The notes: generated from the letters alone by a model not told the origin. DNA of 64,000 nucleotides from Fidelibacterota bacterium (GCA_020354025.1 CP070638.1:657999-721998), one strand, 5' to 3'. Positions 19,351 through 51,800 are shown, counted from the stretch's first letter. A program made the numbers and translations.

Positions 19351-19528
19351 GAAAAAATGAAAAATGCAAGGTGCAAGTTGCGAAGGGCAAAAGGCGGCAA
19401 AGGCCATGAGCGGTGCTCATGGAACGATATGGCGACAGCGTCTGCATAACGCCCGAATATACGCAGGGAAGGGCGGCTTGTCGTTCGCCTGGTGCGCGAG
19501 GTGCGCCTGATGCGCGAAAAAAATCCCG

Positions 19529-19597
19529 CCAAGAGCAGGACAAAAAGCGCCGCAGTATGCTAAAAGAATGAAGATGGTTCTGCTGAGGCAGGAATAG
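19529..19597 (+). pseudogene. Orphan 3' tail of a sorting-domain gene
   Basis: Read in the frame ending at TAG 19595-19597, the DNA encodes KAPQYAKRMKMVLLRQE then stop. This aligns with the last residues of the sorting domain of the next gene (APEYSKSIKMLLLK). No open frame, start codon or ribosome site precedes it, so it looks like the remnant of a deleted secreted-protein gene. Confidence 0.6.
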
Positions 19598-19665
19598 AAC
19601 TCTACTCACTTGCCTATCCATATACAATGAGCGGTAATATCAGCCGTATCAAACAAAGGGTAACT

Positions 19666-21987
19666 ATGCATATTCCTACCAGAAGATTCGCCAACCACCT
19701 AGGGCAGTATATTATTCCCCTGGCAATCCTGACAGCGTTAACTCCGAAACCGGCAGCTGCTCAGGACTCGCTCGCATTGGTGGCGTTTTATGACAGTACT
19801 AATGGGACCGAGTGGATGACCGATACCAACTGGCTCTCCGGGAACGCCCTCTCGACGTGGCAGGGCGTTACGGTGACCGAGGGCCGGGTCACCGAACTGG
19901 ACCTCGAGGGTAACCTTCTGTCCGGATCGCTGCCCTCGAACATCGGGAATCTGTCGCACTTGCGGGTGCTGCGGTTAGCCGATAACCAGATCAGCGGCTA
20001 CCTCCCCCCGGAATTGGGTTACCTCGACAGTATCAGAAATATCGACCTGGCATTCAACCGATTCTCCGGCCCGATCCCATCCGAACTGGGGGATCCGGGT
20101 AAAATCGACACTCTGCGACTGGACGCGAACCAGTTGACCGGGGATATCCCTCCCGAAGTAGGCAATCTAATTACGTTGAAAGAGTTGAGCTTAAGCAATA
20201 ACCTGTTGACCGGGGGTATCCCTCCCGACCTAGGAAATCTGGTAAACCTGGCCAGGCTGTATCTAGGAGCTAACCGGTTGACCGGTACAATTCCAACATC
20301 GCTGGGCGATCTCCCAGATTTGATATACCTAAATCTGAGCAATAGCCAATTGACCGGTGGCATCCCTCCTGAACTGAGCAATCTCATCACATTGAAAGAG
20401 TTGAGCCTTAGCGGCAACCAGTTGACGGGAGGCATCCCCTCATCACTGGGCAGCCTCCCGGAATTGACTCTCCTGATCCTAGGAAGTAACCAGTTGACCG
20501 GGGGTATCCCACCCGAGCTGGGAAACTGTGTAAAACTGACCGAGCTGTCTTTAGGAGCTAACCAGTTAACCGGAGCAATTCCCACGTCGTTGGGCAGTCT
20601 AGCGGAATTGACCTACCTAAACCTGGGCAGTAACCAATTAACCGGTAGTATCCCACCCGAGCTGGGTAATCTCGTAAAACTGACCAGGCTGCATCTAGGA
20701 AGTAATCAGTTGACGGGAGCCATTCCCATGTCGTTGGGTAGTCTGCCAGAATTGACTTCCCTGAATCTAGGAGTCAATCAGCTGACCGGAGCTATCCCCC
20801 CGGCACTGGGTGGTCTCCCAGAATTGACTCTACTGTTTCTGGCAAGCAACCAGTTGACCGGGAGTATCCCTCAAGAGCTGGGTAATCTCGCAAAGCTATC
20901 CGGGCTGTATCTAGGCGCCAACCAGTTGACGGACACAATACCTTCCGCGCTGGGTAATTTGCCGGCTCTCCTGACTCTGTCTTTACCCAACAACATGCTT
21001 TCCGGGAACATCCCCCCGGCCTTAGGCGATATGCCTGTACTCGCCCATCTGGACCTGAGCTCCAATCAACTGACCGGGACTATCCCAGCTACGCTGGGAA
21101 ACGTGACAACTTTGGAAACCATGCTACTAAATGACAATCAACTGGCCGATCCTCTGCCCGCCAGCCTAACTAACCTCGAACTACTATACAAGCTGGACCT
21201 AGCGTCTAATTTGTTGGCCGGGGCTGTACCGGAATTCCTGCGAGACATGCCGGCACTCAACTACCTTTACCTAGATCACAATGCCTTCACCGATCTCCCG
21301 GACCTCTCGCCCGCATATATTGACTTCGCCTTCAGCATAACGAACAACAAGCTCACATTCGAAGACATCGAGCCCAACCTGGATGTCTGTCCAAGCCATG
21401 CCTTCCACTACTCTCCCCAGGACTCCATCGGCGTCGAACAGGACACCACCGTAGCTGTAGGATCAGGTATTGCATTGTCGGTAAGTGTGGGGGGAACAGC
21501 GAATACCTATCAATGGACCCTGAATGACACCGACATTTATGGTGCGACCGATAGCAGCTATACGATTCCCTCTGTAGAACTCGCTGACAGCGGGGCTTAC
21601 ATCTGCAAGATCATGAACACACTCGCTACCGGGCTCACACTATACAGCCGACCAGTGAATGTGACTGTAGAGGGCGAACTGGCGGTTAACAATGCTAACG
21701 AAGGGCCTTCAACCTATGTTTTGCACCAGGCCTACCCCAATCCCTTCAATCCCATCTCAACGATCGGGTATGAGCTGCCGATGGGTAGTGAGGTATCGCT
21801 GATTGTCTATGACATCCTGGGGCGGGAGGTGGCCCGGCTGGTAGACAGCCACATGGAGCCGGGTTATCATCAGGTTCAATGGAATGGCCGAGATAAAAGT
21901 GGCAGAGCAATCCCCGCCGGCAGCTACATTGCCCGGTTGGTTGCGCCGGAGTACAGCAAATCCATCAAGATGCTATTATTGAAGTAA
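19666..21987 (+). CDS. Secreted leucine-rich-repeat protein with Ig-like and type IX-like sorting domains
   Basis: This 773-residue protein starts at ATG 19666, preceded by AAAGGG; an ATG at 19627 has no ribosome site. A signal peptide ends near KPAAAQ. Residues from DNA position 19888 onward form 20 leucine-rich repeats of exactly 24 residues with the LTGxIPxxLGNL style better known from plant receptor kinases. An Ig-like domain follows (SYTIPSVELADSGAYICK near 21555-21615), then a C-terminal sorting domain with AYPNPFNP, YDILGREVARL and a final SIKMLLLK. Such domains direct secretion through the outer membrane by the type IX system in FCB bacteria. A binding or adhesive role is inferred. 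No catalytic motif was seen. Confidence 0.9.
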   Translation: MHIPTRRFANHLGQYIIPLAILTALTPKPAAAQDSLALVAFYDSTNGTEWMTDTNWLSGNALSTWQGVTVTEGRVTELDLEGNLLSGSLPSNIGNLSHLRVLRLADNQISGYLPPELGYLDSIRNIDLAFNRFSGPIPSELGDPGKIDTLRLDANQLTGDIPPEVGNLITLKELSLSNNLLTGGIPPDLGNLVNLARLYLGANRLTGTIPTSLGDLPDLIYLNLSNSQLTGGIPPELSNLITLKELSLSGNQLTGGIPSSLGSLPELTLLILGSNQLTGGIPPELGNCVKLTELSLGANQLTGAIPTSLGSLAELTYLNLGSNQLTGSIPPELGNLVKLTRLHLGSNQLTGAIPMSLGSLPELTSLNLGVNQLTGAIPPALGGLPELTLLFLASNQLTGSIPQELGNLAKLSGLYLGANQLTDTIPSALGNLPALLTLSLPNNMLSGNIPPALGDMPVLAHLDLSSNQLTGTIPATLGNVTTLETMLLNDNQLADPLPASLTNLELLYKLDLASNLLAGAVPEFLRDMPALNYLYLDHNAFTDLPDLSPAYIDFAFSITNNKLTFEDIEPNLDVCPSHAFHYSPQDSIGVEQDTTVAVGSGIALSVSVGGTANTYQWTLNDTDIYGATDSSYTIPSVELADSGAYICKIMNTLATGLTLYSRPVNVTVEGELAVNNANEGPSTYVLHQAYPNPFNPISTIGYELPMGSEVSLIVYDILGREVARLVDSHMEPGYHQVQWNGRDKSGRAIPAGSYIARLVAPEYSKSIKMLLLK
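19888..21315 (+). repeat. Twenty in-frame 72-bp leucine-rich repeats
   Basis: Repeat 1 begins at GTC 19888 and repeat 20 at CTC 21256, a distance of 1368 bases, which is exactly 19 units of 72 bases. No insertion or deletion interrupts the array. Several central units (about repeats 8-14) are very similar at DNA level, suggesting growth by unequal recombination. Confidence 0.9.
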
Positions 21988-22038
21988 GCGTCAGAATAGT
22001 CCCGCCGCTGGCGGGGGTGCTGCTGCAGTAGGGAAGCG
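21949..22038 (+). repeat. 90-bp repeat, copy 1 (gene end plus downstream hairpin)
   Basis: This copy covers the last 39 coding bases of the leucine-rich-repeat gene with its stop and 51 bases of downstream DNA, including the palindrome CCCGCCGCTGGCGGG (22001-22015). It matches 26701-26790 with one visible difference (GCTGCAG against GCTGAAG). Inside the unit a second decayed tail, GTGCTGCTGCAGTAG, follows the hairpin. Confidence 0.92.
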
Positions 22039-22263
22039 TGGCCCGATTCGATTTGTTATTCTTCCATAGATTACTTACTTTGCACCGGCAGTCTTCCTTC
22101 GAAGACTCCAGAGTAAATTGATAGACAACGATGCCACGAAGGAACTGATCAAAGTCCCGCCTATATAATCAAGCTTCGCATTTGTGATTATGTCGATTTT
22201 GGGGAGTGCCTAGGGGTATTAACTAAGATCTAAAAGACCTGCTGCAGGCAGGGGGATCAAACC

Positions 22264-25263
22264 ATGAGCGGTAGAACCTGGCTGGCCGTCAGCATTATTC
22301 TACTTGTCACAATCTCAAGAGCCACCATTATCAACGTGCCGTCCGACCAATCCACTATTCAGGCAGGGATCGATGCCACCAGCAACGGCGATACCGTCCT
22401 GGTACAACCGGGCACTTATGTTGAAAACATCAACTACAATGGAAAAAACATTGTGGTAGGGTCACTGTTTCTCATTACGGGAGATACATCCTACATCTCG
22501 CAGACGGTGATCGATGGGAATCGGGACACCAGTGTCGTGATGTTTCTGAATGGTGAAGATTCTACAGCGGTGTTAACCGGGTTTATGATTACCAACGGCT
22601 CATCTTCTTATGGTGGAGGACTTTTCTCAGATAGCACTTCTAGCCCGAGTCTAATTAATATAACTGTCAGTGGGAATATGGCGACGTATGATGGTGGCGG
22701 GATTTACTGCCGATATTCCAATCTTAGTTTAGAGAACATAACGGTGTATGGAAATACAGCTATTAGCAGGGGCGGAGGGACTTTTATCGGGAATGGTTCA
22801 AATCCAAGTTTAAAGAACGTTACAATAAGCGGCAATACCGCTGGCAGCTATGGTGGTGGGATTGTCATCAGGAGTGGTTCAAACCCGATTCTGGAGAACG
22901 TGACCATTTGCGGGAATACTGCTGATAGCTATGGTGGTGGGATTGTAATTAGAACTGATGCTAACCCGATTCTGAAGAATGTGACCATTAGCGGGAATAC
23001 TACTGATAGCTATGGTGGTGGGATTGTTATCAGGAGTGGTTCAAGCCCGATTCTGGAGAACGTGACCATTAGTAGTAATAAAGCAACAACGGGCGGCGGT
23101 GTTCGTGTTAGGAGTTATTCTAATCCAACTTTTAAGAACGTACTCATCACCGGGAATACGGCTACTCTGGATACTGTATGGTATTATGGTGGTGAGGGCG
23201 GCGGGATTTATGTCGACGGAGACTCCAGCCCAATCTTTATTAATTCAACCATATGCGGGAATTCTGCTGATAGCAGCGGCGGTGGGATTTTCATTCGTAA
23301 TAATTCCCACCCGATTCTGGTGAATACGATTCTCTGGGATGACTTGCCCCAAGAGATTTACATCCCTCAAGAAGATGTATATCCTGATACTATAACAATC
23401 ACCTATTCAAATGTACAGGGCGGGGAAGCAGGAATAGTAGCTGCGGGCGACTCTGACCTCGTTGCGTGGTTGGAGGGCAACATTAATTCTGACCCTCTTT
23501 TTGCCGATACTGCCAAAGGGGACTATCACCTCTCTAAAAATTCTCCCTGCATTGGGACTGGAGTTGAATTGATTCAAATCGATGGTAGTTGGTACTACTC
23601 ACCAGATACCGACATCGATGGCAACGCCCGCTCCATGCCCGTCGGTACCAAACCCGATATGGGGGCCTATGAGAACCAGACCATAACCCCCATCGCCGGC
23701 CTCGTCGCCTACTACCCCTTCAACGGTAACGCCAACGATGAGAGTGGGAAAGGGAATGACGGCACGGTTAACGGGGCTATACTTACAGCGGACCGGTTTG
23801 GGAAGGCCAACAGTGCCTACAGTTTTGATGGGGTGGATGATTATATAGAAACTTCTGAATTTCAAATGACAACGAATAGCTTCAGCGTATCATACTGGGT
23901 TTACGATGATGAATATGATGCTGGCTTTCATGGAGGCCATTTATACTGTTATGTAACCTCCAGTTCCTATGATAGATTCTGGTTCATTGATTATTCAGAC
24001 GGTAGTGGGATCGGATACAAAGTCGGGGATTCTGATGCAGATGAGATAGTACTTTACCAGCCCACAGTACCATCTCCAGGCTGGCATCATGTGCTGGGAA
24101 CGTTCGACAATGATCAGCATGAATCAAGGTTGTTTATCGATGGCGAGTTAAGTATATCAGGGATAAATGCCAGTCTAGTGATAACTAGCATGACACGAAA
24201 GCTAGTTGTCGGTACTGCAGACACAGGTTATGGCTACTGGTTCCGTGGGAAAATCGACGACATCCGCATCTTCAACCTCGCCCTGAGCGAGGCCGAGATC
24301 CAGGCGCTGTACCACGAGGGCAGCGGGGATGCCGGCAACACCATCAGTCACTGGACCTTCGATGAAATGGCAGGAGATACTCTATATGATGTCAGCAGCA
24401 ATGGACACCACGGTGTAATTACGAAAGCATCATGGGCGGAGGGCTACTCGGGCGGTGCCCTGCAGTTCGGGGATTCTGCTTATGTGACGGTCCCTTATGC
24501 GGTCGATACCAGACCGGTCGAGGCCATCACGCTGGAGGCGATAGTGCTTTTTGAAACCTTCGATCCTATGCAAGCCATCGTGTCCACAAGCGAGTACGGT
24601 GGCTATGGATTATGGATTTATAATTCCATACCCGATATTTATATTCAGATAGACTCCGTATACTACAGCGCTGCATATTCAGGAGGGCTGGTTACCGACA
24701 GATGGTACCACATCGCTGGTGTTTTTGACGGATCGGCCGTGAAGTATTACATCAACAGGGCGCTGAAGGATTCGGTCCCTGCGTCAGGGAACATCACGTA
24801 CCAATATGAGAACGCCCTGCAGATTGGGGCTGAAGCCGGTAAGGAAGACCTTCCTGAACTGAGAACTTCCTTCCATGGTCGCATAGACGCAATTCGTATT
24901 TCGGGCAGAGCTCTCAGTCCGGGTGAATTCCTGGCCTTTGATGCGATTTCCGTAGCCGTCAGCCCAGTTCAATCCGACGTTCCCGAAGGCTTCAGCCTGC
25001 ACCCCGCTTACCCCAATCCCTTCAACCCGGTGTCCACAATCAGGTATGACTTGCCACAAAAAAGTGAGGTCGCGCTGACGGTCTATGACATCCTGGGCAG
25101 GGAGGTCGTGAGGCTGGTGGAAGGCTACATAGAGCCGGGGTATCACCAAGTGAAGTGGGATGGCCGAGATAAGGGTGGCCGAGAAGTCCCCTCCGGCATA
25201 TACATCGCCCGGTTGGCCGCGCAGGAGTATAGTACGTCGATTAAGATGCTGCTAATGAGGTAG
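22264..25263 (+). CDS. Secreted beta-helix/double-LamG protein with type IX-like sorting domain
   Basis: This 999-residue protein has a signal peptide (cleavage near ISRA), then a right-handed parallel beta-helix of the polymorphic-membrane-protein type, seen as repeating NVTISGNTA and YGGGI motifs (residues about 30-400). Two concanavalin-like LamG modules follow, beginning at LVAYYPFNGNANDESGKGND (about residue 480) and ISHWTFDEMAGDTLYDVSS (about 695). The end is a sorting domain with AYPNPFNP, YDILGREVVRL and SIKMLLMR. GGGGGAT precedes the ATG. Beta-helix plus LamG layouts suggest carbohydrate or surface binding; no lyase or hydrolase residues could be assigned. It is a neighbour and probable secretion co-substrate of the LRR protein. 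Confidence 0.9.
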   Translation: MSGRTWLAVSIILLVTISRATIINVPSDQSTIQAGIDATSNGDTVLVQPGTYVENINYNGKNIVVGSLFLITGDTSYISQTVIDGNRDTSVVMFLNGEDSTAVLTGFMITNGSSSYGGGLFSDSTSSPSLINITVSGNMATYDGGGIYCRYSNLSLENITVYGNTAISRGGGTFIGNGSNPSLKNVTISGNTAGSYGGGIVIRSGSNPILENVTICGNTADSYGGGIVIRTDANPILKNVTISGNTTDSYGGGIVIRSGSSPILENVTISSNKATTGGGVRVRSYSNPTFKNVLITGNTATLDTVWYYGGEGGGIYVDGDSSPIFINSTICGNSADSSGGGIFIRNNSHPILVNTILWDDLPQEIYIPQEDVYPDTITITYSNVQGGEAGIVAAGDSDLVAWLEGNINSDPLFADTAKGDYHLSKNSPCIGTGVELIQIDGSWYYSPDTDIDGNARSMPVGTKPDMGAYENQTITPIAGLVAYYPFNGNANDESGKGNDGTVNGAILTADRFGKANSAYSFDGVDDYIETSEFQMTTNSFSVSYWVYDDEYDAGFHGGHLYCYVTSSSYDRFWFIDYSDGSGIGYKVGDSDADEIVLYQPTVPSPGWHHVLGTFDNDQHESRLFIDGELSISGINASLVITSMTRKLVVGTADTGYGYWFRGKIDDIRIFNLALSEAEIQALYHEGSGDAGNTISHWTFDEMAGDTLYDVSSNGHHGVITKASWAEGYSGGALQFGDSAYVTVPYAVDTRPVEAITLEAIVLFETFDPMQAIVSTSEYGGYGLWIYNSIPDIYIQIDSVYYSAAYSGGLVTDRWYHIAGVFDGSAVKYYINRALKDSVPASGNITYQYENALQIGAEAGKEDLPELRTSFHGRIDAIRISGRALSPGEFLAFDAISVAVSPVQSDVPEGFSLHPAYPNPFNPVSTIRYDLPQKSEVALTVYDILGREVVRLVEGYIEPGYHQVKWDGRDKGGREVPSGIYIARLAAQEYSTSIKMLLMR
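22810..23095 (+). repeat. 81-bp (27-residue) tandem repeats in the beta-helix
   Basis: AGCTATGGTGGTGGGATT recurs at 22846, 22927 and 23008, exactly 81 bases apart. The three units are nearly identical at DNA level, including AACCCGATTCTG and AACGTGACCATT segments, pointing to recent in-frame amplification within the beta-helix. Confidence 0.88.
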
Positions 25264-25426
25264 GGGTTGCCAACCAGGCAAAGGACACTTCATATGAGGC
25301 GTGAACTATACTTTTAAGAGGTATAATGTGTCTATTAGTTTTGCTGTAAGTAGCTAACATTACCATGATGACAAACAGGGGATTCATGATCATGCACGCT
25401 CTCTCACGTCAGAGAAAAGGAACGTC

Positions 25427-26608
25427 ATGAAGCATCGCATTCCCGCAATGTCACTATCGCTTGTCATCCTATCAGGTGGTTGCTCGAACCACCAGGATAT
25501 GGCCCGGCAAGAGGCCGAGGCTCTATTCCTACAGGGCCTCGAAGCTCGCTTCTACACACAACCAATGGCTGAGGGAAGCCAAAATAAATTCCTGGTGCCC
25601 ACTGCTATTTTAGAGCAAGCCATCGCAGCCGATTCGACCTTCGCCCCGGCTTATGCCTATTTGGTCATACCGCTTTATTTTGCGGTTGGGTATAAGGGAT
25701 TATCAAATGAAGGGAGGCGAAATCTCGCAATATCAATGATGGAGAAAGCGTTGGAGCTGGATCCGGACCTTGCCGCGGCTCATGTTGCTAAGGCTACGAT
25801 GCAGTACTTGTATGAAGAGGACTGGGAAGGGGCGGAGGAAACATTTCAGCACGCACTTTCCCTGGATTCCAACGACACCGAAGCGCATCGGGAGTATGCT
25901 TTCTTGCTGCTTAGATCAGGACGGTTTGACGAAGGGCTGGTAGAAGCGGAGAAGGCCTATGAGCTGGACCCCCTTTCGCTTGAGGTTTACACAACACTAG
26001 GGGAAGCCTATCTCTATGCCGGCCGGTTTGATGAAGCTGCCGATATGTACCTCAGAATCATTGAGGTAACGCCATTAAGGGTCAATGGCAGTTATACCAG
26101 GCTAGCGTTTATCCACCTGATGAACAGGGACGATGAAACTGCCCTGGAAGTGGCCCAGGAAGGAGTGAAAATTGCACCTGATGATGCGGTAATCAACATG
26201 TATCTCGGTTGGGCTGCTACTAGGAACGGACTACTTGAGGAAGCTCTGACCGCGTATGAGAAAGCTTATGAACTACGCGGCAACAAGGCCGACATAGCAA
26301 ACCTTGGAATCATCAACGCCCTGCTGGGACTGCGAGTATCAGCGTTGGAAGCAATTACCAAGCTTGAACAGGTGCTTGATGAAGGAGATTATAAAACCGT
26401 CTGGAATATTGCACGCATCTATCTTGCCCTGGGTGAAAACGACATGGCGCTGGACTGGCTCGAACACTCCTGCAATATACGCATCGATCAGAACCAGCCG
26501 GGCATTAAAGTATGGGCTTGGCAGCTGACCGTAGACGCAGATTACGACCCGCTACGCTCGAAGCCACGTTTCCAGGAAATCATCGGGAGAACGGGGTACG
26601 AGATATAG
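25427..26608 (+). CDS. TPR-repeat lipoprotein
   Basis: This 393-residue protein starts at ATG 25427 with AAAAGGAA upstream. The signal ends LSGGCSN, a lipobox. At least six tetratricopeptide repeats follow, such as MEKALELDPDLAAAHVAKA, FQHALSLDSNDTEAHREYAF and AEKAYELDPLSLEVYTTLGE. The C-terminal block ending DPLRSKPRFQEIIGRTGY is a frequent ending of TPR regions in adenylate cyclase and serine/threonine kinase-associated proteins. The role is unknown; it probably scaffolds protein contacts in the envelope. It is separated from the beta-helix gene by about 160 bases and followed by a 90-bp repeat copy. Confidence 0.85.
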   Translation: MKHRIPAMSLSLVILSGGCSNHQDMARQEAEALFLQGLEARFYTQPMAEGSQNKFLVPTAILEQAIAADSTFAPAYAYLVIPLYFAVGYKGLSNEGRRNLAISMMEKALELDPDLAAAHVAKATMQYLYEEDWEGAEETFQHALSLDSNDTEAHREYAFLLLRSGRFDEGLVEAEKAYELDPLSLEVYTTLGEAYLYAGRFDEAADMYLRIIEVTPLRVNGSYTRLAFIHLMNRDDETALEVAQEGVKIAPDDAVINMYLGWAATRNGLLEEALTAYEKAYELRGNKADIANLGIINALLGLRVSALEAITKLEQVLDEGDYKTVWNIARIYLALGENDMALDWLEHSCNIRIDQNQPGIKVWAWQLTVDADYDPLRSKPRFQEIIGRTGYEI

Positions 26609-26679
26609 AGGATTAAGGCGGAATGGGGCATATGACCTACCCTTATTCTTTAGATCAGTGGCTAAGTTTAGATTTTAAT

Positions 26680-26739
26680 TTGAACCAATTAGCAGCACCA
26701 GAGTACAGCAAATCCATCAAGATGCTATTATTGAAGTAA
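26680..26739 (+). pseudogene. Orphan 3' tail of a sorting-domain gene
   Basis: The frame ending at TAA 26737-26739 encodes LNQLAAPEYSKSIKMLLLK, the same end as the leucine-rich-repeat protein. It lies between two lipoprotein genes with no open frame before it. Bases from 26701 onward are part of the 90-bp repeat, whereas 26680-26700 are similar only at protein level, so the homologous stretch extends past the near-identical core. Confidence 0.75.
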
Positions 26740-26790
26740 GCGTCAGAATAGTCCCGCCGCTGGCGGGGGTGCTGCTGAAGTAGGGAAGCG
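26701..26790 (+). repeat. 90-bp repeat, copy 2 (intergenic)
   Basis: This stretch repeats 21949-22038 with one visible mismatch, including the coding tail, stop codon, spacer, palindrome (26753-26767) and a second tail GTGCTGCTGAAGTAG. It lies in the intergenic region upstream of the DUF6599-like gene, outside any reading frame. Confidence 0.92.
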
Positions 26791-26864
26791 AAGGACCTCG
26801 TGCAGTTATAAACCAACTGGTCCGTAATCCTTTGGGGACGTACATTATCAATAAGGAAACCCGT

Positions 26865-27815
26865 ATGAGATTTGTTAAATCGATAAGAATTGTGATTGGC
26901 CTGGCATTACTAATGGTGGTGGTTGTGGCATGCCAGAGAGCTATCCGACAGGCAACACCGCAGGATGACCCGGCTACTTCACCAGCAAGGCTAGCCATGA
27001 TGGTCGCCAGTCTCACGCCAGAAGGTTGGGAGATCTATGATAGAGTAATGCAGTTCACGGCGGGAAATCTCTACGAACAAATCGATGGCCGGGCTGAGTA
27101 TTACATTGCCTACGATGTGATCGGGCTGACTTTCGCAAGTTTCGACAAGAGTGCCGACAATAATATATCCCTTAACGTATCCATTTATGATATGGGTACA
27201 CCAACCAACGCCTTTGGGGTATTTTCCGGAGAACGATCAACAGGGGTAGCGCGGCTCGAACTCGGCCGGGATGCTTATAGCTCAGGAGCGAACTATTATA
27301 TCTGGAAGGGTCGATATTATGTTCAGATTGTTGCTTTAGATACTTTAGAGATATTTAAACAAGTCGGCCTGGACATGGCTGAAAAACTAACCAGCCTACT
27401 TCAGGACTCCGGCGAGCCTGTCTGGGGCTTAACCGTGCTACCTGAGGCAAATCGGGTGCCGCAGTCTGTTCAATACTTTCTAGTTGACGCCATGGGTCTC
27501 GATTTCATGCGAAATACTTACATGGCCCAGTATACCAAAGGCGATGTTGTGGTGACGGCCTTCCTGTCCCAAAGAGACTCCCAGGAAACCGCACAGGCTA
27601 CTATGGCAGAGTACATCGAGTATGCAAACAGATACGGCGAAGGTGTGAACAGCCTGACCACAAACGGCGTGGAATTGGTATCCTGCGACATGAACGAGAG
27701 CTATGATGTCGTATTTCAGAAGGGAAAGCTTGTGGGCGGTGTGTCAATGGTTGAAGACCAAAGCCTGGCCATCCAGGGGGCAATCGACCTGTGGAGGCAA
27801 CTCCCCCAGGAATGA
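26865..27815 (+). CDS. DUF6599-like lipoprotein
   Basis: This protein of 316 residues starts at ATG 26865 with AAGGAA upstream; an earlier start at 26832 adds 11 residues before the signal. The signal ends VVVVACQ, a lipobox. The mature part contains NLYEQIDGRAEYYIAYDVIGL and a later YYVQIVAL segment, in the style of the uncharacterised DUF6599 family of exported proteins. No catalytic motif is visible. It is followed after about 100 bases by the aldo-keto reductase pair, so it may share their unit. Function unknown; the family assignment is from memory of the motif and needs a profile search. Confidence 0.7.
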   Translation: MRFVKSIRIVIGLALLMVVVVACQRAIRQATPQDDPATSPARLAMMVASLTPEGWEIYDRVMQFTAGNLYEQIDGRAEYYIAYDVIGLTFASFDKSADNNISLNVSIYDMGTPTNAFGVFSGERSTGVARLELGRDAYSSGANYYIWKGRYYVQIVALDTLEIFKQVGLDMAEKLTSLLQDSGEPVWGLTVLPEANRVPQSVQYFLVDAMGLDFMRNTYMAQYTKGDVVVTAFLSQRDSQETAQATMAEYIEYANRYGEGVNSLTTNGVELVSCDMNESYDVVFQKGKLVGGVSMVEDQSLAIQGAIDLWRQLPQE

Positions 27816-27912
27816 GCTGAAGGCAAAGCGATTTGGACTATTAGTTATCGCCTGACGACGGGAAACATGCGATATTCTCTTTCAATTGAAGCTATAATAT
27901 GGAGGTAGCGTG

Positions 27913-28968
27913 ATGGATAAAAAAGATAATCGCGGCTACATGGAACGAGGAAAGTTTATCAAGCTCTTGGCAGCGGCGGCGGGGGTCAGTAAGACAGCTT
28001 TATTGGCAGCGGCCGGTTTCAAGACAAGAGCACAGACCAAGCCTGCAGAACTGATCCACCGCAATGAACGGCCGGCCATGACCTACCGTAAGCTTGGCCG
28101 GACAAATTTCATGTCCAGCAGATTGATCTTCGGTTGTGCCGGTGTATTATACGGAGCTAAAAACATCCGGATATTAGAGCGCGCATTCGAAGCAGGAATC
28201 AACCATTACGATTCCGGTTCGGAGATCAATTATAAGGGGAGTGAACGCAGCCTGGCCCCCTTTCTAAAGGCACACCGGGAAAAAATCTGGATCGCTTCGA
28301 AAGCGAACCTGTCAACCGTGAGGATTGCACCGGAAGAGCCGATTAGCACCGGGGACGCCAAAACAGCCGCCAGATTCTGGACCAAACAGTTAAATGCCAG
28401 CCTAAAAAACCTTCAGACCGAGTACGTAGATGCATATTATATAGCGAATGTTGAGAATACGGCGTTAGTAAGCAGGGACGAGATCTACAAGGCGTTCCTC
28501 GACGCGAGAGCAGCGGGCAAAGTCGGCCATTGGGGACTAACCACGCACAATAACGCCACAAGGGTAATCGAGGCCGCGATCAAAACTGGATGGTACGACT
28601 CGGCGATGGTAGGTATCACACCGGCGGGATGGTACAGCATGTGGTCGAAAAAGCCTCCTAAGGGCACGCCAACACTTTTCGACCTACGATCGGTGTTAAA
28701 CCAAGCGCGTGACGCCGGGATCGGACTGATAGGGATGAAAACGGTCGTGTACCTGACGCCCATAATGGTACCACCCAAGGGTAACCCGTCCGCATTCGAC
28801 AGGATCTACGACGAGGATTTTAAGAAATCGCCGCTTAACCCGTTTCAGCGCTCCATCGCCTACGTTCTCGAGCACGGACTGGACGTTGTTATCGGCGATA
28901 TGCGCAACTTCAGACAACTTGAAGAAAATATCATCGCGGCGGCGACTGCTCATACTTACTTCGGTTGA
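27913..28968 (+). CDS. Exported aldo-keto reductase-like protein, copy 1 (catalytic His absent)
   Basis: This 352-residue protein starts at ATG 27913, seven bases after GGAGG; an in-frame GTG lies just before. The N-terminal segment ERGKFIKLLAAAAG and an alanine-rich stretch resemble a Tat signal in which the second arginine has become glycine. The barrel begins MTYRKLGRTNFMSSRLIFG. Of the usual tetrad Asp-Tyr-Lys-His, Asp100, Tyr107 and Lys130 are visible, but the His position in DAYYIAN is Ala178. NADPH-dependent oxidoreductase activity is therefore doubtful. It is a tandem paralogue of the next gene; the end sequences (EENIIAAATAHTYF) are nearly identical. Confidence 0.85.
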   Translation: MDKKDNRGYMERGKFIKLLAAAAGVSKTALLAAAGFKTRAQTKPAELIHRNERPAMTYRKLGRTNFMSSRLIFGCAGVLYGAKNIRILERAFEAGINHYDSGSEINYKGSERSLAPFLKAHREKIWIASKANLSTVRIAPEEPISTGDAKTAARFWTKQLNASLKNLQTEYVDAYYIANVENTALVSRDEIYKAFLDARAAGKVGHWGLTTHNNATRVIEAAIKTGWYDSAMVGITPAGWYSMWSKKPPKGTPTLFDLRSVLNQARDAGIGLIGMKTVVYLTPIMVPPKGNPSAFDRIYDEDFKKSPLNPFQRSIAYVLEHGLDVVIGDMRNFRQLEENIIAAATAHTYFG

Positions 28969-29025
28969 TGTTTCATAAGGACATGGTAAGTCAACACAAA
29001 ACAAATAGAATGACTCTGAGGTACC

Positions 29026-30078
29026 GTGACGAATAAAAGAGATGATCGCTATTCCATGGAACGTAGAAAGTTTATGAAGCTTTTAGCAGCGGCGGCGGTC
29101 AGTGGAATGGCCCTGCCGGCAGGCGCCAGATTTAAGACAAAGGCACAAACTAAGCCCGACAAGCTGATTCACCGCAATGAACAGCCGACCATGACCTACC
29201 GTAAGCTTGGCCGGACGAATTTTATGTCCAGCCGATTGGTATTCGGTTGCGGGGCCGCTTTAGCAGGTGGGAGAGCCGTTAGGCTGCTGGACCGCACTTT
29301 CGAAGCGGGAATAAACCATTACGATGTAGGTTATGATGATTATTATAAGGGGAGCGAACGCAGCCTGGCCCCTTTTATGAAAGCACACCGGGAGAAAATC
29401 TGGGTGGCATCAAAAGCGCCCCTTTCCGTCAGGATCAAGCCAGAAGAGTCGATTACACTGAGACAAGCCAAGACTGCCGCAAAGATTTGGACGAGACAAC
29501 TGAACTCAAGCTTAATAAATCTTCAGACCGAATATGTCGACGCATACTATCTGATGGGTGTGGACAATCCGTCTTTAATAAACAGTGAGGAGATCTATAA
29601 GGCGTTCCTCGATGCTAAAGCAGCCGGCAAAGTCGGCTATTGGGGGCTGAGTACTCATAAGAACGCCGAAAAGATACTGGAGGCTGCGATCGAAACGGGC
29701 TGGTATGATCTGGCGATGATAGGCATTGCACCGGCTGGATGGTACGACTGGACCACGAAGGATCTCGCGGAAGGTACGCCCCCGCTGGCAAGCCTCCAAC
29801 CGCTGCTGAAACGGGCCAGAGACGCCGGGATCGGACTGATAGGGATGAAAACGGTCAGGTATCTGGCGCCTATGACGTCGCTGGGCAAGGGTGACCAGTC
29901 GGCATTCGATAATGTCTATGGCGAGAAGCTCAAGGCAGCGCCTCTTAATCCATTTCAGCGGGCATACGCCTATATCCTTGAGCATGGACTGGACGTTGTG
30001 AATGCCGATATGCAGAACTTCAAGCACCTTGAAGAAAATATCATCGCGGCGGCGACTTCTCACACCTATTTCAATTGA
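29026..30078 (+). CDS. Exported aldo-keto reductase-like protein, copy 2 (catalytic His absent)
   Basis: This 350-residue paralogue starts with GTG 29026, preceded by GAGGT. Its N-terminus MERRKFMKLLAAAAV contains an intact twin-arginine motif followed by a hydrophobic stretch and TKAQT, a plausible cleavage region. The barrel has Asp100, Tyr107 and Lys130, while the tetrad histidine is Met177 in DAYYLMG. The two copies share long stretches (for example KSGE-like YYKGSERSLAPF and RDAGIGLIGMKTV) and are 57 bases apart, so they arose by tandem duplication. Export to the periplasm is predicted; tatC is in the window. Enzymatic substrate unknown; a binding or altered redox role is possible. Confidence 0.86.
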   Translation: MTNKRDDRYSMERRKFMKLLAAAAVSGMALPAGARFKTKAQTKPDKLIHRNEQPTMTYRKLGRTNFMSSRLVFGCGAALAGGRAVRLLDRTFEAGINHYDVGYDDYYKGSERSLAPFMKAHREKIWVASKAPLSVRIKPEESITLRQAKTAAKIWTRQLNSSLINLQTEYVDAYYLMGVDNPSLINSEEIYKAFLDAKAAGKVGYWGLSTHKNAEKILEAAIETGWYDLAMIGIAPAGWYDWTTKDLAEGTPPLASLQPLLKRARDAGIGLIGMKTVRYLAPMTSLGKGDQSAFDNVYGEKLKAAPLNPFQRAYAYILEHGLDVVNADMQNFKHLEENIIAAATSHTYFN

Positions 30079-30156
30079 GGTTTCATATGAACATACCGGT
30101 GACACCGGAGTGCACGAAGACTACCAAGATCAGTAAAAAAAAGAGGGGGGCAAATC

Positions 30157-31032
30157 ATGACTGAGTCCGCGGACACAGGTGGCAGAGGAGGATACCGGCT
30201 GGCGGACCATCCCTGGGCGGCACTGCCGATATTCATGGTGGCATTCGTGGTGTTGCTGGGCCTGGTGGGCACCGTATTCACCGCGGTCGGTCTACAGCCG
30301 GGCGGTCCGCTGCAACAAGCTACAACCCAGGTGCTGCTGCTGTTCGTATTGACGCCGTTCGTGCTGGGGCTGCCGAAGGGTCGGAAGGGTATGGCGACAT
30401 ACCTGGACGATATCCGGCTCAGCCAGGTCAAGCCGCTGGTGCCGCTGGTGGTCCTGGGGATATCGTGCTGGGTGATCCTGGCGCTGTGCCAGGGGCTGGG
30501 TACGATCATCTACCGGTTGACCGAGGGGAAGGAACTCTCGGCGGCATTCCTGTTGAGCGTATGGGACCTGCGCGTGAGCCTGCCGCCGCGCTCCGCCGAA
30601 CTGCTGGTATCGCTGCCGTCGGCCCTGGAGGAGGTGGCGTTCAGGGGAGTTGTGGTCACGCTGTTCCTGAGCAGGTACCGCCGGAACGCGTCGATCGCGA
30701 TCCCGGCAGCAGCGTTCGGTGCATTGCACCTGCTGAACCTGGCCGGCGGCGGACAGGCCCCGGTATGGGTGCTGGGCCAGGTAGGATGGGCCTTCCTGAT
30801 GGGCCTGATGTATGGCTACCTGTTCATCAAAGCGGACAGCCTGCTGCCGGGGATGATCCTGCACTGGCTGGGCAACGCATTCGTGGCAGCGATCATGGCG
30901 TACCTGAACACCAACGCCACGACAGAGGTGCAGGTACTCTACGGGGTGGTGACCACGTTCGGGCTGGTGCCGGTGGTGTTGATCATAGCGTGGGTCCGAT
31001 ATTTCAGCCGCCGGTGGCTGCGGCCCCTCTGA
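30157..31032 (+). CDS. CPBP-family intramembrane metalloprotease (CAAX protease-like)
   Basis: This 291-residue membrane protein has about eight hydrophobic helices and the three family motifs: EEVAFRG, FGALHLL and HWLGNAF, giving the EExxxR, FxxxH and HxxxN/B residues of Rce1-like proteases. GAGGGGGG lies just before the ATG. Bacterial members process or protect membrane proteins and peptides, often unknown. The coding sequence is much more GC-rich, with CTG/GTG-dominated codons, than the adjacent reductases and the neighbouring convergent CPBP gene, and this also creates long false frames on other strands. Transfer from another source is possible. Confidence 0.88.
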   Translation: MTESADTGGRGGYRLADHPWAALPIFMVAFVVLLGLVGTVFTAVGLQPGGPLQQATTQVLLLFVLTPFVLGLPKGRKGMATYLDDIRLSQVKPLVPLVVLGISCWVILALCQGLGTIIYRLTEGKELSAAFLLSVWDLRVSLPPRSAELLVSLPSALEEVAFRGVVVTLFLSRYRRNASIAIPAAAFGALHLLNLAGGGQAPVWVLGQVGWAFLMGLMYGYLFIKADSLLPGMILHWLGNAFVAAIMAYLNTNATTEVQVLYGVVTTFGLVPVVLIIAWVRYFSRRWLRPL

Positions 31033-31109
31033 TGACTGCATAAACTCTCAGCTCGTACACCAGTTCGTCAGTTGACTGATCAGGCCTAAGCCCTCAGGGA
31101 TGGTTTTTC

Positions 31110-31126
31110 CCCCGCCGCTGGCGGGG
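31110..31126. repeat. GC-rich palindrome, TTTTTCCCC type
   Basis: CCCCGCC-GCT-GGCGGGG is a perfect 7-bp inverted repeat with a 3-base loop, preceded by TTTTTC. It lies between two convergent genes. It is not a standard terminator, because the T-run is on the 5' side in + and would be an A-run after the hairpin on the minus strand. It belongs with 22001-22015, 26753-26767 and 33373-33389. Confidence 0.8.
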
Positions 31127-31174
31127 TCCAATTTGACCACAAGTGACAAGTGTTGATCCATAATGGGGATTCAG

Positions 31175-31921
31175 CTACCGGGCATCGGCAAAGTACATCT
31201 GCACCATCAAGATTGTATCCATGTAGGCGTGGGCAAGGATTAACACCCACAAGTTTCTCTTCATGCGGAGGTAGGCAAAACCGAGTATCAGGCCCATGAA
31301 GGTGGTCTGCACGAAACCCGAAATCCCCCAGTCGTAATGGGCGAGGCCGAATATAATCGCGCTAAGGATGACAGCTATCTTTGGCGACGCTATTCCACCG
31401 AGACCGATTTCTGATATCCGATTGATGAGGAAGGCACGATAAATCACCTCTTCGCCAAAGGATGATGCGATATACACAGCGAGGAGCGCGATGATAAGCA
31501 TGGGCAGATTGCCACTTAGATAGTTATACGTGTCCAGATCGGGACCTTCAGGAATGCCGACAATGTTCGCCATCACGATCGCGCCAATGAGGAACGCCGC
31601 AGTTGCGAGCATAAAGACAACCACTGACCGCAACAATGTGCGCCGGACAGCGGGAAAGGAAGGACGTTGGAAGCTCAGCCCGAAGTGATCTATTCCCTGG
31701 CCTCGCAACCTGAGTCCAAACCAGACTATCAGCAGCATGAGGATATTGGCGACCCAAGTTACTCCCTGCATGGCGATTACATTGTCAGCGACTATCGGCT
31801 TACAGGCGGTAATCACGACGAATGCCACAAGGAAGACGCTGACGATTTCACCAAGTTGGGCCCATCTGCTGTTCGCCAGGGCCGCTTCAATTCTGTTTCT
31901 GATTCCCGGCTTATTTTCCAT
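31175..31921 (-). CDS. CPBP-family intramembrane metalloprotease (CAAX protease-like), second
   Basis: This 248-residue membrane protein has the motifs FGEEVIYRAF, IFGLAHYDWG and LILAHAYMDT, matching the CPBP EExxxR, FxxxH and HxxxB pattern. It is convergent with the other CPBP gene and less GC-rich. The two are similar only at the family level, so this is not a tandem duplication. A TTT-rich, AT-containing region follows its start toward 32248. Substrate unknown. Confidence 0.87.
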   Translation of the reverse strand: MENKPGIRNRIEAALANSRWAQLGEIVSVFLVAFVVITACKPIVADNVIAMQGVTWVANILMLLIVWFGLRLRGQGIDHFGLSFQRPSFPAVRRTLLRSVVVFMLATAAFLIGAIVMANIVGIPEGPDLDTYNYLSGNLPMLIIALLAVYIASSFGEEVIYRAFLINRISEIGLGGIASPKIAVILSAIIFGLAHYDWGISGFVQTTFMGLILGFAYLRMKRNLWVLILAHAYMDTILMVQMYFADAR

Positions 31922-32248
31922 TTAATCCTCCAAAGAATATCATCGAGTGAACGTCGCTATGGCAAGGTGCGCAGTCTCAGGCTGAAACTGAGAGAGACCT
32001 ACTGGGGATCAAAGGTTTCGATCCCGCCCAATTCGAAGCAGCTTCTGAGTGAGCAAATCACGCTGGTACATATTTGCTGTGTTCTGTCACTATTTTATAG
32101 ACTGCAAAGTAAGCATTGCGATGGATTATTGCACCAGAGAGTTCCAATGCCAAAACGATGGTGCTGGTGAAGCAGGGGCATCTGAGCCGGAAATCAGGTC
32201 ATCGGTAGGCGGGGAGTAGGAGCCGGAACCAGACAGGGACTGGTACAG
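31922..32248. other. Gene-free stretch with a decayed sorting-domain tail
   Basis: About 327 bases between divergently placed genes hold no convincing coding sequence; a 167-codon frame starting inside the protease gene is antisense. At 32140-32175 the + strand reads SSNAKTMVLVKQ, resembling the end of a sorting domain with the stop changed to CAG. No other structure was seen. Confidence 0.5.
32140..32175 (+). pseudogene. Decayed sorting-domain tail
   Basis: The codons read SSNAKTMVLVKQ, similar to the KSIKMVLLK end of sorting-domain genes; AAGCAGGGG replaces AAGTAGGGG, a single T-to-C change in the stop. No gene precedes it. The match is short, so confidence is modest. Confidence 0.4.
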
Positions 32249-32689
32249 TTATTCAGCGATATTCGTGGGTTGTTGGGAAAGAGGTGCCTGCAGGCTAGGG
32301 CGTCCTGCCTTCGCTCTCACCCAATTGATTGCTCTTACTACTATAGGCTGCTGCACTATCCAGCGCTTGAACTTGACCTTCCCGGGAAAGTCAATAAGCA
32401 GCAAACCGATTATAATGGTTAAAATACCCTCACCTGGCAAGACAAGCAAGACTATCCCGATTAATACAAGTATAATTCCAAGAAAATTCCTGAAAATGCT
32501 AGTGCATATGCGCGAGAATGAGCGCTTTTTCTGCCCTCGACCTGGCTGCTGCTCCAAACTAAGGATGTAGTCAACGGGAAGTCGCAGAACAACCACTGGA
32601 ATAGATATTATGAATGCGACGACTATAGCAGCCGACAGCATGGTTATCCACCAGAACTCCTTCATGTAGTGCTGTATCAGGTCAATCAT
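32249..32689 (-). CDS. PGPGW-family membrane protein
   Basis: This 146-residue protein has an N-terminal membrane helix and a central hydrophobic hairpin containing GIVLLVLPGEGILTIIIGLL, the pattern of the PGPGW family (here PGEG). A basic segment KVKFKRWIVQQPIVVRAINW follows, as in that family. The role of PGPGW proteins is not known. The gene is isolated, with gaps on both sides, and its stop lies about 80 bases beyond the decayed tail at 32140-32175. Confidence 0.78.
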   Translation of the reverse strand: MIDLIQHYMKEFWWITMLSAAIVVAFIISIPVVVLRLPVDYILSLEQQPGRGQKKRSFSRICTSIFRNFLGIILVLIGIVLLVLPGEGILTIIIGLLLIDFPGKVKFKRWIVQQPIVVRAINWVRAKAGRPSLQAPLSQQPTNIAE

Positions 32690-33046
32690 CAGTCCTGCCG
32701 ACTCATCAAGCGTTTTGCCGGTGAGCTTATTCCTAGCTTTTTGAGTGCTTGGGACAAAACCTAGGAAAGATATTCGACTATTCCAAGATTTTGTTCAAAT
32801 TAGTTCGAATAGCACGCTATAGCTTCCGTCATACTAACCGAGCGACACCAGCTTACGACAAGTCCATCAAGATGGTGCTGTTGAAGTAGGGGCAAGACCC
32901 ATTCTTCTGACGGGGTGACGCTATACCGAGAAGGCCTTGAGTTGCACTTGTTAATCTAACAACGGCTGCATAATATCCAGATCGCGGTCAGCCATGCAAC
33001 GAGCAGATCGTACGGTTCACAAACTCACATCTAATTGGAGGATGAT
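32690..33046. other. Gene-free stretch with an orphan sorting-domain tail
   Basis: These 357 bases lie between the divergent PGPGW gene and the 39-residue gene. The main feature is the orphan tail at 32839-32889. The remainder is AT-rich around 32760-32830 (CTATTCCAAGATTTTGTTC) and may hold promoters. No frame longer than a few dozen codons with a ribosome site was seen, apart from the small gene beginning at 33047. Confidence 0.5.
32839..32889 (+). pseudogene. Orphan 3' tail of a sorting-domain gene
   Basis: The frame ending at TAG 32887-32889 encodes RATPAYDKSIKMVLLK then stop, nearly the same as the ends of the secreted proteins at 21987 and 25263. There is no upstream open frame. It is the clearest orphan tail that is not part of the 90-bp repeat. 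Confidence 0.7.
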
Positions 33047-33166
33047 ATGGCCTTTTTACAGCATATCGGAGTACTGTTAGGCGGCTTAGGGATATTCTTT
33101 ATGGGAATTGGAGCGCTTTACTGGATGTCAATCCAGGAGGAAGAAAAAAAGAAAAAGAAGGAGTAG
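33047..33166 (+). CDS. Small membrane protein, 39 residues
   Basis: ATG 33047 is preceded by GGAGG (33038-33042), a good ribosome site. The product has a hydrophobic segment FLQHIGVLLGGLGIFFMGIG, a short aromatic end ALYWM, and a very charged cytosolic tail QEEEKKKKKE. This is the layout of a single-pass membrane miniprotein. No family is recognised. It stands alone between orphan tails, with a strong terminator about 110 bases downstream. Confidence 0.65.
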   Translation: MAFLQHIGVLLGGLGIFFMGIGALYWMSIQEEEKKKKKE

Positions 33167-33224
33167 CATCGCAAGTTGACCTTCCCCAAAAAGCTATATC
33201 GGTCCTTAAGTCAGTATCCGGCCT

Positions 33225-33248
33225 ATTGAGGCGGTGCTGCTGAAGCAG
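33225..33248 (+). pseudogene. Possible decayed sorting-domain tail
   Basis: The DNA GCGGTGCTGCTGAAGCAGGGG resembles GTGCTGTTGAAGTAGGGG at 32875-32892 and reads IEAVLLKQ. The stop is again CAG rather than TAG. It is very short and would be weak alone; the shared GGGG after the stop position is suggestive. Confidence 0.3.
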
Positions 33249-33274
33249 GGGAGAACGCAAGAGCATATATGCAT

Positions 33275-33303
33275 AAAAGCCCCGGTTCGCCGGGGCTTTT
33301 TTC
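33275..33303 (+). terminator. Intrinsic terminator
   Basis: AGCCCCGG and CCGGGGCT form a perfect 8-bp stem around a TTCG loop, preceded by AAA and followed by TTTTTTC. It lies about 110 bases after the 39-residue gene and is the best terminator in the window. The tetraloop and T-run favour the + strand, though the A-run permits both. Confidence 0.9.
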
Positions 33304-48780: not shown

Positions 48781-48801
48781 ACTTCGTATGACGAGGGAAT
48801 C

Positions 48802-51800
48802 CTACTTCAGCAGCACCAGCTTGACATGTTTGGTATATCCGCTAGCCGGCTGACCGGTTACCATGCGCAGGATATACACGCCAGTAGGGACCTCCTTGCC
48901 TAAGGCGGTCCGCCCGTTCCAAACAACCTGGTGATAGCCTGGTTCAACATATCCATCACGCAGACGAATCACCTCCCGCCCGAGGATGTCATAAATAACC
49001 AGGGACAGATTGGTGGCAGCCGGCACATCAAACCTCACGGTGGTTGTAGGATTGAAGGGATTGGGGTAGTTCTGGTGCAGAGCGAACGCCTCCGGCAAGT
49101 CAGATATCCCCGCCGCCATTGCCAAGGCCGCGTTGTTCACTGAGTAGCCACTGTCAACCTCCGAGAAGGCGTAAACCTCGGGGTATACCGTATAGGCGGC
49201 AATCTTGACGTATACCCAATTCATACCCGTCTCGTTTGAGTCTTCAGGGACCGGAACCTGAAGGGAATACAAGGAATCTCTCGTCGCTTCGATGATATCT
49301 ATTACCGTCCACCCCTCAAGAGTATCTGCATCTACCACCGGTTCAGACGAAGCAGCCACCTCATACAGCATGCCAGTGATTATATCCTGCAGGCCTGCTG
49401 GGTTGTCAGTCGTTAACGGATCAAACGTTACTTGTGCAGGCGATTCATGCGGCTGTTTCACCATGAGTTCATCTATCATCGCTTTGCTGCCAGAACGCTG
49501 GTCGTGCACCAGCGGAGTGGCGCTAGTTGCTGCCTCCGGAGCCACGGATGATATACCGTCCTCGGGCTCCGGGGACATCGCCTTCGCCAGAACGCTCGGG
49601 CTAGACGCCACCGCAGCCGTTGTGTCCTTCAACCATACGCGGTATGATGTTACGGGAGTTGCACTGGAATCATTATCATCAGCGGAAGCCAGCCAGGTAA
49701 CATCCACCCAGCCTCCCCCATCTTCAGGCACATCCTCAATAGCGGTGATTTGCGGCGGGCTGATCTCCGGGAATAAGACCTTCAAGTATGCCTTTCTGGT
49801 TGCGATGGGATTATCTGGATCGGTACCGGTTATCACAATTTCAGCGGCGTAATCACCAACAGCCATACTCCTGGCATCGAACTTGACTTCAATATCTGAT
49901 GACGAACCGGCCGGGATAACACCACTTTCCGGGCTTAGCTTCAACCAAGAGGGAACCGCGTCAACAGGTTGCCCCACATCAGCAACTGATCGGGTCCTGA
50001 CCGAATTTTTCAAATTAGCCAGAGATCCATTGATCTTGGCAGTCGCAACAGCGATCTGGTCAACTGAAATCCTGAAAGCCAGCTCACTGCCTCCGGCGGT
50101 GTTGTCGATGGTCAGGATCTGAACGGAGGTATCCAAGAACGACAGCTCCACTCCCAAAGAATCTGGCGTGATCACCATTATCGGTGGCTCCAGGCATTGG
50201 CCCACAAGTGGTATCGTCAGGACGGATTCGTCAGGATCGTCGCTGACAATAGTCAACGAGGCATTAAAGGCACCGAGATCGGGAGGAGTGAAGGTTACGA
50301 GTACGCCTTGACTCGCACTGGGGCTAAGGACAAAGGAGGTCGTGTCCACGGTATAAGCGTTATTGTTGGTTGAGATGCTACTCACCGTAAGGACTTGGCT
50401 GCCGGGATTAGAGATATCCAGGGATATGGTTTTAGTCCCTTCGGGGAAGACAACGCCATAATCAAGAGTGTCACTGGAGATAGCAATGTCGGCTTCATCC
50501 CACACCTGGAGAGTTGTGGGAACCCGGATAACCGGATTGACCGGATCGTTGCTGCTGATCACAATATCGGTAGAATAGTCACCGGTCGAGAGGTTCTCTG
50601 CCCGAAAGACAACGCCAATTTGTGCACTGCTTCCGGCAGGTACCAGACCGCTGACATCGCTCAGGCTCAACCAGGATTCGTCAAATTGATACGAGATGTT
50701 TCCCATGCCGATATCAGGTACAGAATCCCACCAATCCCAGCCATCGGCATCAAAAACCAGGATGGCGAAGTTGATCGCGGAGCTAGCTCCGAGGTGATGC
50801 CTAGACATACCCAGGACCAACTCGAATCCATCCGAACCAGCAAAGGCAGTTGATAGAGAATCAAGTAGAATCCAATCATACTCATCCCCTCCCAGGTAAA
50901 CAAGCTGGCCTACAACGTTTAAGCCCAAGTATGGAGAGTATTCGATCCAATAATTCGTTCCCAGCAGCCAGTCAATATCGGGATAGCCAGTGGAAGTATT
51001 CTGATCTGCATCAATAATAATAATTACATCCTCGGTTCCAGTAATTGGTGTATAACTATCCATCTTAAAGAGCAGCTCATCACTACTATGGGCCGCATAT
51101 ACATGTTGAATATCATATGGCCAACTCCCTTCATTCGGGTCCGTATACAGCCACTGCCAATTGACGTTGGGCAGGTCTCCTTGGGGGGTGGACGCGGTGA
51201 TAGTACCCTGCATACCACTTGATAGGAGCTCCTCATTTAGCGTACGAACCAGCTCAGCGGAGAGACCTTGATACTGCGTCCCATCAATGTGTACCACCGG
51301 TTCTCCTTCGGCTAGGGAAGCGGAGGAAACTCCGGCAGGGGCTGCTATTTCCATATCAAAGATCAGGTCACTCCCGCCAGCACTGTTGTCGATAGTCAGA
51401 TACTGGACGGATGAATCCCCCGCAAACAAATCCTCACTCAGCGAATCTGGCGATACCACAATCACCGGGGGAGATGCACCCTGTCCCAACAAGACCACCG
51501 CGACGGCAGGTTCATCGGGATCGTCGCTGGTGATAGTCAAGATACCAGGGAAATTGCCGACACTGGCGGGTTCGAAGATAACGGTCACTGCCTGACTTTC
51601 ACTCAGACTTACGCTGAAGGTCGTGAGATCTATAGTATAGGCAGAATTGGTTGATACGATACTGCTGACAGTCAGTAAATCGGTACCCGAATTGGACACC
51701 GTCAGGGTCAGGGAATCGGAGCCCCCAATAAAGACCGCACCATAATCCAGAGTATCGTTGGAAACGGTGATGTCCGGCGTGCCGGTTACGCTCAGGTGCG

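Follow-up and report, generated by a model that had tools for sequence, protein, structure and literature searches.

Orphan sorting-domain tails in the window

We analyzed a 64-kb window (bases 657999-721998) of the 3.40-Mb, single-contig genome of a Fidelibacterota bacterium, in which the ends of type IX sorting-domain genes recur with no gene in front of them. The genome has a gene for a type IX translocon protein (SprA_N match), and the window itself carries a PorW-like gene at 890-2677 (match below the curated cut-off). Three window genes end in an intact tail: an LRR gene (19627-21987), a LamG gene (22264-25263), and the gene for a 2363-aa protein (48802-55893). A preliminary description of this DNA had listed five further tails without a gene, here called orphans, and had offered two readings of them: debris left when secreted-protein genes are lost or exchanged by recombination at their conserved 3' end, or a short mobile repeat that spreads together with the gene end.

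Are the orphan tails distinguishable from chance matches? To detect them, we scanned both strands with a position-specific matrix of 60 nt, for which the training set consisted solely of intact gene ends from outside the window. Seven sites scored above 5 bits, namely, the three intact gene ends and four of the five listed orphans (26689, 32839, 19541, and 32125). No site above 5 bits appeared in 60 dinucleotide-preserving shuffles of the window (maximum, 1.4 bits), and none appeared in the reversed window sequence, so these four orphans are real. The fifth listed site, 33225-33248, scored -8.2 bits; its likeness to a stub is limited to the final ~22 nt (GGTGCTGCTGAAGCAGGGGAG) and is suggestive only.

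Comparison of the copies revealed that the homology between tails and gene ends holds at the DNA level. The best orphan (26695-26790) and the stretch at 21943-22038 share 97% identity over 96 nt; the latter runs ~50 nt past the stop codon of the LRR gene. Because the orphan copies sequence beyond that stop, the match is DNA-level homology, more than a similarity of peptides. The orphan at 32839 is 100% identical, from -4 to +28 around the anchor (TCCATCAAGATG), to a gene end 2.3 Mb away. Frame and stop, the latter described earlier as kept in the best cases, are present at 26689 (..APEYSKSIKMLLLK-stop) and 32839 (..TPAYDKSIKMVLLK-stop), and the stop codon has become CAG at 19541 and 32125. The single orientation noted earlier is true only locally, as genome-wide 26 orphans lie on the + strand and 22 on the - strand.

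Table 1. Tail units and adjoining repeats, in window coordinates
Feature	Position	Strand	Remarks
Best orphan unit, long palindromic insert (T + P + tail stub)	26695..26790	+	87 bp behind TPR-protein gene; site 26689, 65.6 bits; model R1 E 3.9e-26
Palindrome P (CCCGCC GCT GGCGGG) within best orphan	26753..26767	.	Stem covariation among copies
Orphan unit, no insert (..TPAYDKSIKMVLLK-stop)	32839..32889	+	52.1 bits
Degenerate orphan tail (YAKRMKMVLLRQE-stop)	19541..19600	+	27.5 bits; shuffle maximum 1.4
Degenerate orphan tail	32125..32184	+	17.2 bits; shuffle maximum 1.4
Possible 3'-end stub of unit (GGTGCTGCTGAAGCAGGGG)	33217..33253	+	78% over 37 nt (family D15); nhmmer E 0.14; -8.2 bits; not significant alone
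Gene-borne unit, long palindromic insert: end of LRR gene 19627-21987 plus ~50 nt past stop	21918..22038	+	Site 21937, 68.7 bits
Gene-borne tail, no insert: end of LamG gene 22264-25263	25189..25269	+	Site 25213, 51.3 bits; Por_Secre_tail match; model R1 E 8.2e-12
Gene-borne tail of 2363-aa protein 48802-55893	48793..48852	-	24.8 bits; Por_Secre_tail
Upstream repeat U adjoining best orphan	26630..26681	+	nhmmer E 8.5e-6; leave-one-out E 0.018, weak for this copy
Repeat D	25282..25363	+	Recurs behind both genic and orphan tails; nhmmer E 1.3e-12 (served as seed)

A genome-wide family with a recurrent upstream boundary

With the best window orphan as the query, BLAST found 50 places in the same genome. 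Alignment of 20 copies from six genomes gave the composite GGCATCTACATCGCCCGG..TCCATCAAGATG-CTNTTATTGAAGTAAGCGTCAGAGTAGT-CCCGCC NNN GGCGGG-GGTGCTGCTGAAGTAGGG, and a covariance model of this tail-plus-hairpin composite found 99 matches in the genome; of the 94 model matches that were read, 56 are not preceded by an open frame of 100 aa. The unit common to these copies, which we call unit T (TCCCCTCCGGCATCTAC...TCCATCAAGATG followed by GTGCTGCTGAAGTAGGGG), comprises the final 25 to 27 codons of sorting-domain genes of the type IX (Por_Secre_tail-like) kind, together with a few bases past the stop. These data suggest that the orphan tails are probably copies of a small dispersed DNA repeat of ~80 bp.

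Orphans were defined by the length of the open frame in front and by a reliable anchor (at least 8 of the 12 bases of TCCATCAAGATG), which yielded 48 orphans and 30 sorting-domain gene ends; under this definition very decayed copies are missed, and the counts are lower bounds. The genome-wide counts come from model searches and from about 420 kb of stretches chosen around matches, so that statistics on gene neighborhoods describe those places only. All but one of the 48 orphans are intergenic, and 29 of these 47 are co-directional with the preceding gene. Decay spans all degrees, and many copies are badly decayed. Por_Secre_tail (PF18962) has 52 matches in the genome at E <= 0.001 (about 30 above the cut-off), almost all of which lie in long open frames. 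Whereas the intact genes encode the ~75-residue C-terminal domain that matches this profile, the orphans correspond, in DNA and peptide, to its final ~25 residues as found in the local subfamily; they have neither the initial two thirds of the domain nor a cargo gene, and the open frame in front of them has a median length of a few dozen codons.

Where does the homology to gene ends begin? Among the 36 informative orphans, a gap-free matrix placed the 5' boundary 40 to 50 nt before the anchor in 14 (P = 6e-10 versus a uniform distribution) and beyond 66 nt in only two. A similar boundary, at 41 to 49 nt, was found in 9 of 19 orphans of relatives. By eye, many orphans begin at (T)CCCCTCCGGCATC, the PSGI codons. 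Since the loops of the domain vary in length, we repeated the boundary test with a gap-aware profile built on the domain DNA that lies 55 to 250 nt before the anchor. This profile matched all 15 held-out genes and 3 of the 48 orphans, all three of which belong to a tandem array that immediately follows an intact gene; preceding domain DNA was found in none of the 45 dispersed orphans. Random breakpoints would leave most copies with this part of the domain, and on the two boundary tests random debris was rejected for most copies, which disfavors the first of the two earlier readings. Two orphans extend further back (114083 to -97 and 1395741 to -80); the former, and possibly the latter, could be true gene remnants. 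Local tandem duplication was also rejected as the source of the orphans, whose nearest relatives are mostly hundreds of kilobases away.

The repeat is found throughout the family, in several genera. BLAST returned 28 to 40 matches in three genomes of the same genus; in other genera of the family, four genomes gave 15, 44, 23, and 6. Searching a genome collection with the repeat retrieved a single record, CP070787.1 (Candidatus Neomarinimicrobiota bacterium isolate bin1478); a window protein used as the query gave no match there, and a search of viral contigs gave no match.

Shared junctions and palindromic inserts

Sequence upstream of the tails was also compared among orphans. Two orphans ~880 kb apart, 1226089 and 2104813, are 81% identical from -83 to +24, including ~25 nt of non-tail sequence. 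A non-gene repeat, U (TGACCGGCCCCTATTCTTTGG..AAAGTTAGGATT), is common to seven orphans, with its end fixed 25 to 32 nt before the anchor; three further orphans have U at a greater distance, and U is also found away from tails. Leave-one-out E-values for U ranged from 0.018 to 6e-11, some members, including the window copy, being weak; outside this test, the profiles of U and D had their own matches as training sets. Because these chimeric junctions are shared, copying of orphans is needed to explain them, not repeated gene loss.

Other repeats accompany the tails. At orphan sites 1395741 and 2098816, 703 kb apart, another common repeat of about 120 bp lies upstream of the tail (82%). Repeat D (GACGCTTCAGATGAGGCGTGAACTAAACCTTGGAAACGCGAAATGTGTCTCTTAGTTTT; noted in the window and at L015, L026, L032, and L123) is also located before genes and, inverted, upstream of some orphans, and it is present in genomes G001, G003, G004, and G005. 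A further repeat, R (AAAATTCCGCATTCTGGAG..CCCGACGGGG and ..GCGTCTGCATAACGCCC..CTGGTGCGCGAGGTGCGC; window 19171-19522), directly precedes the orphan at 19541; R has copies in G001, G002, and G003 and no Rfam match.

Within the tails, the position TG^GTG is a hot spot for a palindrome, CCCGCN5GCGGG (P). The empty form of the tail reads AAGATG followed directly by GTGCTGCTGAAGTAGGGG. In the long form, ~44 nt follow the ATG, comprising LLLK-stop, a spacer, and the palindrome, after which the old end resumes. In the short form, the insert is ~23 nt (CYTTTGTCCCGCnnnnnGCGGGG), and the frame reads KMLLSRRMRGCC-stop. Classification by template gave 16 empty, 12 long, 1 short, and 1 unclear among the 30 gene ends and 12 empty, 16 long, 18 short (a few of them weak), and 2 unclear among the 48 orphans (Fisher P = 0.007 for insert classes in genes versus orphans). 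On inspection, the sole short call among the genes (655451) had no palindrome; hence, no gene truly has the short form. As the long insert brings its own LLLK-stop, the C terminus of the cargo gene stays intact. The short insert, judged from its reading frame, is predicted to destroy the signal, and its class is seen only in orphans; a short-insert orphan is also present in G005 (L119).

The stem of the palindrome is 97.5% paired and covaries (C-G to A-U in 6 of 20 copies). Genome-wide, CCCGCN5GCGGG occurs 111 times, compared to 8 for a reversed-pattern control; about one third of the copies lie near tails, and they are often broken by further palindromes. A tandem array of the 44-nt long-form unit (GCTGCTGTTAAAATAATCGTTAGAATAGTCCCGCAGGATGCGGG) lies behind an intact tail gene at ~1508125-1508347 (L023 and L044). 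Four genes of G000, G001, and G006 (two genera) carry a third insert, of 21 bp, which lies in frame at ARL^VTPE, again mostly at TG^GTG. A separate candidate, a conserved fold inside the tail itself (CTCCGGC/GCCGGAG stem), was rejected: it showed no covariation and was no more paired than shuffled sequence (0.648 versus 0.649). We also observed a CTTCGNCNAGCTCAGGA-type palindrome within tail units (AAG, GCTTGTCCTGAGCTCGGCGAAG, GATG) at genome positions 967435-967544 and 969182-969298 (L149), a further element at the hot spot.

Origin of the repeat and competing explanations

On the basis of these results, we consider it likely that the orphans belong to a family-wide, non-autonomous dispersed repeat that arose from type IX cargo gene ends and is homogenized with them by recombination. 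Unit T would derive from sorting-domain gene ends; since the genes carry the whole conserved domain, we take them as the source and the repeat as derived. It would then have been copied alone into intergenic spacers, in either orientation, and the small palindromic element P would have inserted at TG^GTG within it. Copying would most likely resemble transposition by a non-autonomous, hairpin-bearing element, REP (repetitive extragenic palindrome)- or MITE (miniature inverted-repeat transposable element)-like, perhaps via single-stranded DNA. P inserts at a fixed short target without visible target duplication, as HUH/Y1 single-strand elements do. Finally, gene conversion may exchange sequence between orphan and genic copies. 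The end of the LRR gene (21949) and the orphan at 26701 have an identical tract of 77 nt in common; its flanks are diverged but partly alignable, and its outline looks like a conversion tract. The exchange by recombination at the conserved 3' end that was first proposed would fit this tract as homogenization of existing copies. The other earlier proposal, a mobile short repeat spreading with the gene end, is supported by the defined extent of the unit, the recurrent 5' boundary, the shared non-gene junction, the palindromic insert, and the presence in several genera.

Which enzyme could have copied the repeat? The sole clear Y1 transposase gene of the genome (L039, 2660143-2663487) is flanked by palindromes of its own kind (CCCAGCCATTCATGGCTGGG), with which it forms a separate REP/RAYT-like system, and it is a weak candidate. 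Several observations weigh against a mobile repeat of this type. The palindromes beside the one Y1 gene differ from P, and no Y1 transposase was found in G001 and G002 (both incomplete), G004, G005, G006, and G009, repeat carriers included; G005 has 44 repeat matches at 95% completeness, yet no Y1 was found. Neither a target-site duplication nor clean terminal repeats were recognized (no systematic test was made), although TCCCCT..AGGGGA was seen at unit ends (by eye only). The unit is not rigid, in that several orphans have other 5' boundaries (20 to 34 nt). Congeners are about 70% identical to this genome in DNA and keep little of its gene order, and synteny at the window, its TPR gene, and the 2.08- to 2.10-Mb cluster was too diverged or rearranged for empty-site proof. 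For orphan 2089794, one conserved gene pair suggests absence at the matching place in G002, where the far neighbor differs.

Could the orphans instead be 3' stubs of sorting-domain genes that decayed or were deleted, the deletions having a hot spot near the PSGIY codons? All degrees of decay, the reach of 114083 and 1395741 to -97 and -80, and the share of copies co-directional with the preceding gene (29/47) would be consistent with such stubs. We regard them as an unlikely explanation, given that preceding domain DNA is present in 0 of 45 dispersed copies, that 5' boundaries are clustered, that unlinked loci share non-gene upstream sequence, and that the short-insert class is present in no gene. 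The earlier interpretation is partly supported, in that of its two readings the mobile repeat is favored over debris. It is quite unlikely that selection keeps the unit as a functional intergenic element, e.g., a transcript-end or RNA-binding signal, with the genes bearing the same 3' element. A DNA match that goes on past the stop codon, the covarying hairpin, and the recurrence of the neighboring repeats U and D could be explained in this way, but orphans lie in every orientation to their neighbors, many are badly decayed, the stem within T does not covary, and no Rfam family was found in window positions 17000-36000.

Tails might also act like cassette attachment sites, the orphans being sites left behind exchanged non-tail genes. 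Runs of the type tail-D-gene-U-tail (683205-684741 and 971917-973468) and 96-bp direct repeats 4.75 kb apart, which flank two window genes, are in line with this possibility. We nevertheless find it very unlikely, as a co-directional gene does not consistently precede the orphans (29/47), which are dispersed over the genome with no single array, and as no att-type core, including the integron attC core (RYYYAAC/GTTRRRY), was recognized by eye (no integron integrase search was made). Chance or convergent low-complexity matching, applicable to the stub at 33225 only, has a negligible probability: the shuffled and reversed controls gave 0 sites versus 4 window orphans, which rules it out for the four main sites, and the best pair has a BLAST E of 3e-40.

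The dispersed repeat described here is a variant of known small repeats, unusual in having a protein-export signal as its unit and inserts that are distributed according to their coding effect. With REP/BIME/REPIN elements and their TnpA-REP (RAYT) transposases (PMC3733652, PMC2817692, and PMC3116915), it shares a short G+C-rich palindrome with a covarying stem, tens to a hundred copies, a mostly extragenic location, nested and tandem copies, and a fixed short target with no visible duplication. It differs in that the unit includes protein-coding gene-end sequence, that the GTAG tag beside the stem is not conserved, and that the Y1 gene is flanked by other palindromes and is absent from repeat-bearing relatives. 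The position of the GTAG tetranucleotide varies in alignment A1, and short inserts read TTTGTCCCGC; a strict GTAG-REP was rejected, as only three exact copies of GTAGTCCCGC-loop-GCGGG occur genome-wide. Like Rickettsia palindromic elements (RPE; reviewed in PMC10969869), the 21-bp insert is in frame within genes and adds a peptide (LVPPTAG and similar at ARL^VTPE). RPE, however, are about 150 bp and lie in many unrelated genes, whereas here the insert was seen only in sorting-domain ends, the genes surveyed, and most copies of the repeat lie outside genes. MITEs and small mobile sequences (PMC10969869 and PMC2229807) are likewise non-autonomous, short, dispersed, family-wide, and on both strands; in contrast to them, no long terminal inverted repeats or target duplications were recognized here, and no autonomous parent is known for this repeat. 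We found no earlier report of it in the open-access papers searched.

Small repeats in bacteria are usually noncoding palindromes located between genes; the unit described here is the end of an export signal. Signal-sparing inserts in genes and signal-breaking ones only outside them would be a natural experiment on repeats versus coding constraint. The repeat would, in addition, account in part for the marked DNA-level uniformity of secreted-protein gene ends in this genome, which extends even past the stop codon. For annotation, short intergenic matches to sorting-domain ends should not be read as evidence of lost genes. A bolder reading, to which we give some, although limited, credence, is that a selfish intergenic repeat took over the export signal: the insert, which re-encodes the final residues and stop of the signal, would let it enter the 3' ends of type IX cargo genes harmlessly, and this genic reservoir would refresh the orphans by gene conversion. 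If so, orphan copies landing in frame behind other open reading frames could hand out parts of an export signal.

Apart from the tails, two neighboring aldo/keto reductase genes in the window (27910-30078) share ~75% DNA identity and represent a tandem duplication.

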